Positions 31,282 to 58,034 of a stretch of DNA of 64,000 bases are shown in pieces (the stretch's first letter is position 1; each line of letters opens with the position of its first letter). Origin of the DNA: Candidatus Deferrimicrobiaceae bacterium. GTDB taxonomy: Bacteria; Desulfobacterota; Deferrimicrobia; Deferrimicrobiales; Deferrimicrobiaceae. Position numbers and translations under genes: made by a program. The notes beneath the pieces were generated by a model. The model saw only the letters and a program-made list of their open reading frames with translations. It was not told the DNA's origin and made no database searches. The stretch is taken from the NCBI GenBank assembly GCA_036504035.1, contig DASXVV010000009.1, positions 372,001-436,000 on the forward strand. Reading direction: 5' to 3'.

Positions 31282-32996
31282 TTCTTCTCCAACGGGTATC
31301 CGGTATCGCTCGCGAGCGCGTAGACGTTCGCATAATCCGCATCGGCCGTCGGGACAAACCGGTCGGCGCCCAGCGCCTCGAGCGATCGCCTGCCGGCCAC
31401 GCTCTTGTGAATCGACAGGAGCAGGTCGCGGAACCGTCCCACCTGCCGCGCGTTCATCTCGCGGGAGACGACCAACGCGTTCTCGGGAAAAGTGGACGTC
31501 CGGTCGATCTCCCGAAGATGCGCGGCCACGCCGGGCTCGGTCCGCACGATGCGCCGGAGGACGAGGTCCTTGACCGCCGCCGCGTCGGCCTTTCCTTCGA
31601 GCACCATCCGGATGGCCTCTTCATGGGATCGGGCCCGGATCGCCTGGCCGAAGAACGCCACGGGATCGCTTGCGCCCATCTTCCGCTGGATCGACCGCAT
31701 GCATAGCTCGCCGGCGGAGGTGTCGGGGACGTAGGCAAACCGTTTCCCGCGCAAAGCCGAAAGGCTCCTGAGGGAGCCGTCGGCACGGACCACCACCACC
31801 CCCCGATACCACGAGACCCCTTCGGCCTCGGGCCGGGCCACGGGAACGATGCCGAACCGGGTCTTCAGGCGCGCATACGCCAGGCTGCCGACAAAGGCAG
31901 CATCGATCCGTCCCTCCTGGAACGCTTGAACCACGTCCTCGTAGGTCAGGAGAAGCTTGATTCTCGTATCGACGTCGAGCTGCTCGGCAATCATCTGGGA
32001 GATGCCCGCGTACCTTTTCTCCTGGACGATGGCGCCGAGTTCGGGGATCACCCCGATGGTCAGCGTTCCGGACAGCGGCGACTTCTTCTTCGGGGTGGCA
32101 TCGCCATCGGTCGCCCGGCAGTGGCAGGAAGTGACCGGAAACTTGTCGACGGCCGCGACCAGCCCCAGGGAGGTGATCTGGTGGACTCCTTCGACGGAAA
32201 CGAGGTGGTTCGCCATCTCCTTGACCGGATCGGGCGCGTCTTTCCGGAAGATCATGGCGTATTCCAGGCGGTAGGGGTAGGCGGCTTCCCGGTCGCCGGA
32301 GGAAACGGGCGGCCGGCCGTCGATCGCCAGCGGGACGACCGGGAACTTCTCGACCAGTGTCCGTGACAGGGGAACGCAGGCAAGGATGCCCGTAATCGAC
32401 CGGGTCGCATGCAGGACGGCCTCACTCGTCTCGATCGGGAGGGCGGAGGAGCGCGAGGCCGGCGAGTGCCCCGCCACCGACTCGGCGGCGGCCCGCAGCG
32501 TCGAGTTGGCAGGCCGCTCGACGACCCGGATCGGGAGGTCCTTCCCGCCCACTTCCTTCCAGTTGGCGATGCGGCCGCCGTAGATGGCGGCCAGCTGGGC
32601 GGAGGTGAGGGCGGTCACGCCGGCATCCTCCCCGGCGATGAAGACTGCGCCGTCCCAGGCGAACGGAACGTAGTTGATGTCGCCCTCGATGATCCCGGGC
32701 CCCGGCCTCCGGGCCGTCACCCCGAGGTCGGCGGCCCCCTTCCGGATGATACCCGGGATGTCGGCCGACTGCGCGTGAATGATTTCGACCGTCAGGTCCG
32801 CACTCGCGGAGTATCCCTCGACCAGCTTCCGGAACGCGGAGATGTTCTCGTCGGAGGCGACGACGCGAATGATCTTGCGGGAATCGGCGGGCGCCGGCAG
32901 CACCTCGACCCGGTGCTTGTTCGCGTCGCACCCGGCCGCAACCGAAAGCAGGAGGACGGCCGCCGAAAGTATCGAAGGGATGCGGGGGAAACTCAT
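31278..32996 (-). CDS. Fused PstS-like and PhnD-like substrate-binding lipoprotein
   Basis: A 572-residue lipoprotein. The signal ends in lipobox VAAGC with Cys23. Residues 41-285 look like a PstS-type binding domain (KIIRVVASDENISAFRKLVEGY, LTSAQLAAIYGGRIANWKEVGG). A linker contains CHC at 291-293. Residues 309-572 look like a PhnD/phosphonate-type binding domain (LTIGVIPELGAIVQEKRYAGISQMI, LLLTYEDVVQAFQEGRIDAAFVG, RGKRFAYVPDTSAG). No ABC permease or ATPase is nearby, so sensing for the downstream kinase is more likely than transport. Both ends overlap neighbours by ATGA. Two binding domains in one lipoprotein is unusual. Ligands are unknown but oxyanions are plausible. Confidence 0.82.
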
Positions 32997-55333: not shown

Positions 55334-56152
55334 TTACTTGAGGAGCGAAAGGGCGATCGAGGGCTGCTGGTTGGCCTGCGACAGGACCGAGACGCCTGCC
55401 TGCACCAGGATCTGGTTCCGGGTGTAGTTGGCGGTTTCCTCGGCGACGTCCACGTCGCGGATGCGCGAGTTGGCGGCCGTGGTGTTCTCGATGCTGACCG
55501 AGAGGTTCCGGATGACCGACTCGAGCCGGTTCTGGAGGGCACCCAGGCTGCCTCGAGCCGTGGTGACCGAGGAGATCGCGGTGTCGATCGTCGTCAGGAC
55601 GGCCTGTGCGGAGGCGGCCGTGGAGATGTTGGCGGCGCTGATGCTCAGCGTACCGGTGGTGACGGTCGAGAGGCCGACGCCCAGCTGTTCGGAGGAGCCG
55701 GTGCCGATCTGCAGGGAAATGCTGGAGACAGTGCCGGTCAGAAGCGCCTGTCCGTTGAACTTGGTCGAGTCGGAGATTCTTCCGATTTCGGCGGTCAGTG
55801 CAGAAAACTCGGCGTTCAGGTTGGTGCGTTCCGTATCGCCGATGTCGCCCGAGGAAGACTGGACCGCCAGTTCACGCATGCGGCTCAGGCTGTTGGTGAT
55901 TTCGACCATCGCGCCTTCGGCCGTCGCCACGACGGAGATGCCGTTGGCGGCGTTGCGGGAAGCCTGCCCGAGGCCGCGGATCTGGGCGCCCAACTTTTCG
56001 GAAATCGCCAGGCCGGCGGCGTCGTCTGCGGCCTTGGTGATGCGCATGCCGGACGAGAGACGGGCGATGGAGGTCGAAAGACTCGCTTGGGAAACTTCGA
56101 GGTTCTTGCGGGCGGTGAGGGCTGCCAGGTTGCTGTTGATTACGACTGCCAT
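55334..56152 (-). CDS. fliC: Flagellin FliC, short form
   Basis: A 272-residue flagellin with only the conserved D0/D1 helices and a small middle part. The N-terminus is AVVINSNLAALTARKNLEVSQASLSTSIARLSSGMRITKAADDAAGLAISEKL (typical flagellin block, abbreviated). The C-terminus is SIENTTAANSRIRDVDVAEETANYTRNQILVQAGVSVLSQANQQPSIALSLLK. The surface D2/D3 domains of long flagellins are absent. It is secreted and forms the filament. It has its own sigma-28 promoter and a leader of about 150 bases. AAGGAGG lies eight bases before the ATG. Confidence 0.97.
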   Translation of the reverse strand: MAVVINSNLAALTARKNLEVSQASLSTSIARLSSGMRITKAADDAAGLAISEKLGAQIRGLGQASRNAANGISVVATAEGAMVEITNSLSRMRELAVQSSSGDIGDTERTNLNAEFSALTAEIGRISDSTKFNGQALLTGTVSSISLQIGTGSSEQLGVGLSTVTTGTLSISAANISTAASAQAVLTTIDTAISSVTTARGSLGALQNRLESVIRNLSVSIENTTAANSRIRDVDVAEETANYTRNQILVQAGVSVLSQANQQPSIALSLLK

Positions 56153-56306
56153 GATCGTATCCTCCTTGATTTTTCCCGGGCATCCTTGCCCTGGGGTTCA
56201 TGGTTGGTTGACGAATTCCGATTCCCATGAAAACCGGCTTTATTCTTTTTGGTCTGTGCCTTCGGTGATCCCCCTTTCCTCTTGGCGCTCCGTGCATTTC
56301 CTTCTG
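56153..56306 (-). promoter_or_regulatory. fliC 5' leader with CsrA-type GGA motifs
   Basis: The leader from the predicted start point to the ATG contains about nine GGA motifs, including one in the Shine-Dalgarno (AAGGAGGAT). At 56178-56191 the RNA would form GGGCA-AGGA-TGCCC, a five-bp stem with AGGA in the loop. The local sequence CAAGGATG matches the core of the CsrA SELEX consensus. csrA and fliW lie just upstream. Confidence 0.6.
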
Positions 56307-57361: not shown

Positions 57362-57814
57362 CTATCGGTCGCCTCCGGCTTCGGCCGCGGCCGGCGGCAT
57401 CGGGACGCGGACGCCCCACTTGTCGTCCTTGAGCACGAACTGCTTCCCTGAACAGGTCTTCATGTTGACGACGATCGGGGCCCTGAGGTTGAACGTCGTG
57501 TCCTCCTTGCGCCGGCCGCGGATCGTGATCACCGACAGGAGCGCGAGCTCGTCTCCATCCGAGAATCCGACCGCTTCGAGGTCCCCTTCCCCCACGGGCG
57601 CCTCGTAATCGGGGAAGAAGGCGAACGGGTCGGCCACCACGAACGCCAGCTCGGGGCGATCGACGAACAGCATCCATTTGAACTCCGCGCCGGGACGGGC
57701 GTCGACCAGAACGCAGCGGTGGGCGTCGGCGAATCCGGGAAGACCCTCCTCGAGCGTGATGATCTTCTCGTCCGCGATCTCGATGTCGCCCAGCTTGCTG
57801 CCATCAATCTTCAT
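57362..57814 (-). CDS. fliW: Flagellar assembly factor FliW
   Basis: A 150-residue FliW, with [43 protein letters not shown] and LLSVITIRG followed by [14 protein letters not shown]. FliW binds flagellin and, when free, binds CsrA and relieves its repression. It overlaps csrA by 11 bases, giving coupled translation. This is the classical csrA-fliW pair upstream of flagellin. Confidence 0.95.
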
Positions 57815-58034
57815 CTTCGGTCCCCTCCCAGGCTGCCATGAAATCGCGGTCGACGTTCGATGCGGTCCGGTTTTCCTCGACGACCTTCAGGTAGATCTCC
57901 TCGCGGTGGATCTTGACGCCCGGCGGCGCCGAGATGCCGAGCCTGACCTGCCCTTTTCCCACTTCGAGAATGGTGAGCGTAACGTCATCCCCGATCATGA
58001 GCCGTTCGCCCGACTTCCTTGTCAGTACAAGCAT
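57804..58034 (-). CDS. csrA: Carbon storage regulator CsrA
   Basis: A 76-residue CsrA with [24 protein letters not shown] and [19 protein letters not shown]. The extended acidic C-terminus (to residue 76) is typical of the FliW-responsive type. CsrA binds GGA motifs in mRNA leaders. It lies between flgL and fliW. GGGAGG precedes the ATG. Confidence 0.96.

Follow-up and report, generated by a model that had tools for sequence, protein, structure and literature searches.

In C. jejuni the leader of the flagellin gene flaA carries two ANGGA stem-loops, documented by compensatory changes, footprints and mutants, and FliW acts as the antagonist of CsrA (PMC4894983); in B. subtilis the hag leader contains two CsrA sites, one of them over the Shine-Dalgarno sequence, and the genes for FliW and CsrA are adjacent and coupled (PMC7652899, PMC6529632). 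CsrA also binds flaB leaders in Leptospira (PMC8668096), flaB of Borrelia is under CsrA control, as cited in PMC4066749, and the presence of FliW in delta-proteobacteria, anti-correlated with BarA-UvrY, is known (PMC4682653). In Geobacter sulfurreducens FliW acts through CsrA, and the accessible portions of the two papers concerned focus on biofilm and electron transfer and leave a role of FliC open (PMC11934962, PMC13407953).

In this work we analysed 64,000 nucleotides of a Candidatus Deferrimicrobiaceae genome (the whole stretch is called the window), in which the leader of fliC is very likely a CsrA operator of a FliW-CsrA-flagellin switch, CsrA repressing fliC and FliW relieving the repression. 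As in C. jejuni flaA, which is transcribed by sigma28, the gene is a flagellin gene of a Gram-negative organism, here with a predicted sigma28 promoter, with two stem-loops that show compensatory changes, and FliW is likewise present; binding, footprints and mutants exist for the C. jejuni system, and the present one, including the role of FliW, is predicted from sequence. The Gram-negative setting, which the sequence-only reading had pointed out, is not new, since flaA already has this two-stem-loop design (PMC4894983). Unlike in C. jejuni, where csrA and fliW are not adjacent, the two genes overlap here and precede fliC within the flagellar cluster (PMC4894983). In this coupling, and in having two leader sites with one over the Shine-Dalgarno, the locus resembles B. 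subtilis, although the order is fliW-csrA there and csrA-fliW here, and the phylum is another (PMC7652899, PMC6529632). G. sulfurreducens has a similar operon, flgJMNKL-csrA-fliW, and a CsrA with N55; the fliC leader site present here is not described for it in the accessible portions of PMC11934962 and PMC13407953. What is new is a phylum-wide two-hairpin element with a near-exclusive link to flagellin among strong matches to our covariance model (R1, below); the literature searched, which covered few subscription papers, yielded no account of such a CsrA element in the flagellin leaders of these groups.

The gene fliC (55334-56152, minus strand) encodes a flagellin of 272 amino acids (PF00669, E 1.5e-40; PF00700, E 1.7e-26), and its leader occupies 56153-56306 on the same strand. 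From upstream to downstream, the minus strand reads flgL, csrA, fliW, a PilZ-domain ORF, fliC, flaG and fliD, where flgL is assigned from the position of the ORF and from the second, weaker of the two PF00669 matches in this genome, the other being fliC. csrA (57804-58034, minus, 76 amino acids; PF02599, E 8.2e-24) is the sole CsrA match in its genome, and its end is overlapped by fliW (57362-57814, minus, 150 amino acids; PF02623, E 7.9e-33). The two genes had been placed directly upstream of fliC; they are upstream, but the PilZ-domain ORF (56361 to about 57377, start uncertain, minus; PF07238, E 3.6e-5) separates fliW from fliC. This ORF makes a c-di-GMP link to the flagellar cluster possible. 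A predicted sigma28-type promoter, ATTAAAG-N16-CCGATAAG, lies at 56342-56312 on the minus strand; it occurs once in the window and in 0 of 100 shuffles, and the fliC leaders of relatives hold similar sequence. The fliC RNA is predicted to start near 56305, upstream of the first hairpin, and the predicted transcript contains that hairpin because the promoter lies upstream of it. A start downstream of 56178, which would have removed the hairpin from the RNA, is thus not indicated.

The window CsrA aligns with solved CsrA structures through R44 (IHREEIY), with the RNA-binding site intact, and its C-terminal extension aligns to 1t3o, a longer CsrA, and to 5dmb_D, the CsrA chain of the FliW-CsrA entry 5dmb, with N55 kept and V51 present. 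R44 serves RNA binding, whereas binding of FliW requires V51 and N55 in C. jejuni CsrA and, in B. subtilis, N55 as well (PMC7829508). The window FliW matches 5dmb_A, the FliW chain, with E 1e-20.

The first hairpin, SL1 (GGGCA-AGGA-TGCCC, 56191-56178, minus), has a CsrA-type ANGGAN loop with its GGA at 56185-56183, and its stem is lengthened by CCC (56195-56193) and GGG (56177-56175) beyond a bulged A. RNAfold returns the same hairpin that had been read from the letters, as both the minimum free energy and the centroid structure in 26-nt and 48-nt windows (-13.5 kcal/mol; z -2.2 and -1.9). The leader as a whole, folded over 187 nt, shows no excess of stability over shuffles (z -0.06); whole-leader stability is uninformative and we dropped it as evidence. 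A start-codon hairpin seen in long folds was also rejected, as by eye it is absent from the sequence of a close relative (L085). The leader is rich in GGA, as proposed, with 10 copies rather than about nine (mean of 4.9 in mononucleotide shuffles, P = 0.004). Four of the 10 are ANGGA, at 56303, at 56293, in the SL1 loop and, in agreement with the motif noticed earlier, in the Shine-Dalgarno. The fit of the hairpin core to the CsrA consensus also held up, CAAGGATG agreeing with the core of the E. coli SELEX consensus RUACARGGAUGU (PMC6692469). Over both strands of the 64 kb there are 5 ANGGA[ACT] loops on stems of at least 4 bp, and among them SL1 alone precedes a Shine-Dalgarno and start codon. 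Just 5' of SL1 (about 56200-56212, minus), CAACCAACC is kept in the window and in leaders L085 and L086, that is in 3 leaders from 2 genera, while adjacent bases vary.

The second ANGGA hairpin, overlooked in the sequence-only reading, is the Shine-Dalgarno itself. This SL2 (56155-56172, minus, the coordinates being those of the 18-nt frame used in the test; window row aaaatcAAGGAGgatacg) presents the Shine-Dalgarno in an AAGGAG loop, with GGAs at 56165 and 56162. In the window its stem is 3 bp (AUC/GAU), and it is longer in many relatives, for example AUAUUC-AUGGAG-GAAUAU, CUAC-AAGGAG-GUAG and AAAC-AAGGAG-GUUU. At least 3 contiguous base pairs form in 90 of 123 leaders from genomes with CsrA and FliW and in 9 of 32 from genomes with neither; a CsrA-like Shine-Dalgarno, CANGGAG, is found in 98/121 and 11/32 of them, respectively (the SL2 pairing counts place G018 and G020 in the first group). 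Of 105 distinct sequences, 45 form a stem of 4 bp or longer, whereas random re-pairing of the arms yields 9.3 (maximum 19 in 2000 permutations). The two loops of the window are 20 nt apart, A to A, and the spacing ranges over 20-55 nt (median 25, none below 20) in the 83 leaders that combine a hexaloop SL1 with an ANGGAG Shine-Dalgarno. Sites separated by 10-63 nt can be bridged by CsrA, best at distances above 18 (PMC7652899). The window leader thus contains two CsrA-type sites at bridging distance, one of them over the Shine-Dalgarno.

From the C. jejuni and B. subtilis systems we infer binding, repression and the steps that involve FliW and flagellin. One pocket of a CsrA dimer would hold the AAGGA loop of SL1 and the other the AAGGAG loop of SL2; bound CsrA would keep SL2 shut and exclude the ribosome from fliC. 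FliW, made from the upstream gene that overlaps csrA, would free fliC by docking onto the C-terminal helix of CsrA, and unexported flagellin would capture FliW, so that repression returns. The net effect would be translation of flagellin only during flagellin export. CsrA might instead bind the leader chiefly to stabilise or activate the fliC mRNA, as the rise of flaB transcripts on CsrA overexpression in Leptospira interrogans (PMC8668096) could suggest; this is unlikely here, as the Shine-Dalgarno lies within the second site, in a loop whose stem covaries, and this geometry represses in C. jejuni and B. subtilis (PMC4894983, PMC7652899).

Repression of translation through the two hairpins is consistent with their conservation among relatives. 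Within the order, 10 of 24 genomes have flagellin matches and 8 of these include the fliC start; G019 and G022, in which the gene start is missing, were excluded from the family leaders. Of these 8 family genomes, 6 carry the exact SL1 14-mer ahead of the flagellin gene, in its leader (the window, G018, G009, G017, G011 and G021), and in the other two, G020 (GGGCAGGGACGCCC) and G023 (GGGCATGGACGCCC), loop letters have changed with the four stem pairs intact. Outside the stem-loop and the Shine-Dalgarno the family leaders vary widely. The conservation on which the earlier proposal depended is therefore found, in the 14-mer within the family and in covariation of the stem across the phylum. In G021 the FliW match (G021:C5:25114-25443) has one in-frame TGA, and the fliC element is intact.

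To these 8 leaders we added 100 from the phylum, one per genome, taken from among the matches listed (in G030, G066 and G101 a place other than the first listed was used). If a hairpin is taken to be a stem of 4 bp or more that closes a GGA-containing loop of 4-7 nt between -75 and -15, 79 of the 108 leaders have one, against 5.6 +/- 2.3 (maximum 14) in 500 dinucleotide shuffles and 5/106, 6/107 and 3/107 in upstream control stretches of the same leaders; most of the 29 leaders without it under this rule come from genomes that have CsrA and FliW. The loop has A two positions before GGA in 75 of 78 cases, with the following base free, and after GGA it has U, A or C in 77 of 78 and G in 1. By its letters this conserved loop is the ANGGAN hexaloop described for Csr/Rsm proteins (PMC7652899).

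The stem was also assessed without regard to pairing, by anchoring each leader on the ANGGA nearest -38; rows were not selected for pairing here, as they were for the two-hairpin model below. Such a site exists in 112 of 138 leaders outside the set that lacks CsrA and FliW and in 7 of 23 inside it. In the 89 distinct sites among the 112, 76.9% of cells are paired (51.3% when shuffled) and the covariation is 0.543, a value reached by 0 of 500 shuffles (0.165 when shuffled), although shuffle and permutation tests, these and those above, are inflated by related sequences. Double changes occur at all five SL1 pairs, and sliding the alignment by one column lowers the covariation to 0.224 at most. 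Compensatory changes in the stem, looked for in relatives' fliC leaders at the suggestion of the sequence-only reading, are thus present. One line of evidence was set aside: the exact 14-mer GGGCAAGGATGCCC occurs in 53 of 395 genomes against 2 for the backwards pattern, but because most matches are not leaders, several being in-frame Gly-Lys-Asp-Ala codons and one terminator-like, this enrichment was not counted. In the terminator-like case (L124, in G139) a T run separates the 14-mer from a Shine-Dalgarno and ORF, and the site resembles an intrinsic terminator hairpin. Another match (L130, in G097) stands before an ORF that by eye is ammonium transporter-like, in a genome in which CsrA and FliW were undetected, and is probably due to chance.

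The distribution of the hairpin follows that of the two proteins. Of 395 phylum genomes, 186 have FliW, 190 have CsrA and 184 have both; 243 have a flagellin-domain match, and CsrA occurs in 11 of the 152 that have none. In flagellated genomes with neither CsrA nor FliW the hairpin is present in 1 of 23 leaders (G069; G339 was dropped from this set, its best match beginning at profile position 40), compared with 18 of 30 leaders of CsrA- and FliW-containing genomes with scores in a similar range, these 30 being some of the genomes beyond the matches listed, in label order. When the leaders are pooled, with G062 and G129 counted once and G018 and G020, which are outside the phylum draw, left out, the hairpin is in 87 of 125 leaders with both proteins and 9 of 32 with neither (Fisher 3e-5), an association that is partly phylogenetic and uncorrected, as two families account for 10 and 5 of the 32. 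In families f29 and f39 no hairpin was found, and the drawn members examined have neither protein.

The 9 leaders that keep the hairpin are what one would expect if the hairpins acted independently of CsrA, in mRNA stability, ribosome standby or transcription attenuation, with an incidental AGGA loop. All 9 are in draft genomes from families with CsrA- and FliW-containing members, so that the proteins may be missing through assembly gaps or recent loss. Such a role would leave the restriction of the loop to A-N-GGA with N free, and the lack of the hairpin in 22 of the 23 leaders from genomes with neither protein, to coincidence, and no terminator-like site was found at the fliC leader on the minus strand of the window; we regard it as very unlikely. 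Comparative data strongly support control of the fliC leader by CsrA, as far as sequences can indicate it.

The CsrA operator reading was further confronted with a covariance model, R1, that comprises both hairpins and whose 42 leaders were selected for their pairing, all of them outside the family of the window (44 were listed; L237 and L289 were left out). In the window R1 finds the two-hairpin element up to the start codon (56150-56194, minus) with 51.2 bits and E 1.8e-10 (genome-wide E 8.9e-9), the next match having 16.4 bits. This second-best match lies at 32375-32411 on the plus strand (E 0.041). Rfam 15 has no family at gathering in the whole window, its one sub-threshold match (E 1.4) being on the other strand. 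In the 24 genomes of the order and family, with 150 candidates scored per genome, R1 gives one match of at least 45 bits, at fliC, in each of the 8 with a fliC start, and none of that strength away from fliC; the next best has 29.1 bits and precedes an ORF with a CxxCH motif (G014). The fliC leader might serve chiefly as a sponge, drawing CsrA off other flagellar mRNAs, since the flaA leader of C. jejuni titrates CsrA besides being repressed (PMC4894983), but the one strong two-hairpin element of each family genome is at fliC, which leaves no obvious competitor targets of this architecture, single-site targets aside, and makes such a role highly improbable.

Across 287 genomes, R1 yields 77 matches that pass 1e-4, in 73 of them, when 20 first-look candidates per genome are considered, and 75 of these 77 are flagellin starts (63 called by coordinates, 11 of 13 from fetched sequences and 1, in G045, from the earlier 14-mer matches); 32 of the 73 genomes had contributed a row to the model. 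The other two, G131:C11:244875 (L353) and G159:C30:81075 (L354), precede genes for the same kind of protein in family f41; the proteins share RYLAVLEEN near the N-terminus, and the SL2 stem is much like that of f41 flagellin leaders, which raises the question of a second CsrA target in this family. At 80 named flagellin loci, 32 have an R1 match with E<=0.01 that ends on the flagellin start, namely L002, L003 and, with weaker matches, 30 among the other 78, mainly in Bdellovibrio-type genomes. In Bdellovibrionales, R1 also matches L014:2670-2722 and L021:6158-6209, before non-flagellin ORFs that both have AQEW near their start.

That a hairpin arose by chance in a GGA-rich leader would agree with the unremarkable 187-nt fold, but has a negligible probability in view of the 79 hairpins in 108 leaders against 5.6, the pairing-blind covariation, the match to a model from which the family was held out and the 75 flagellin starts among 77 strong matches. 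The FliW-CsrA-flagellin pattern recognised at the outset is supported by these hairpins and their covariation, by the 51.2 bits of the R1 match, and by the residues of CsrA and FliW and the linkage of their genes.

In conclusion, because relatives keep the two-hairpin layout, flagellin synthesis in this cell is very probably governed by the FliW-CsrA-flagellin switch already known, a mechanism ordinary in kind, and the finding takes this switch beyond a handful of model species, to an RNA element that covaries throughout a deltaproteobacteria-like phylum. More tentatively, CsrA may be a near-dedicated repressor of flagellin here rather than a global regulator, csrA-fliW and the operator forming one three-part module that is inherited with flagella and lost with them, and this may even be the ancestral role of CsrA; the single strong operator of each family genome, the 75 flagellin starts among 77 and the rarity of CsrA in genomes without a flagellin-domain match (11/152) fit this idea, for target searches that covered two-hairpin operators. 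The two-hairpin element, absent from Rfam 15, serves as a genome-wide marker, so that CsrA targets become predictable where co-occurrence alone was known, and flagellin control as the older role of CsrA becomes testable.
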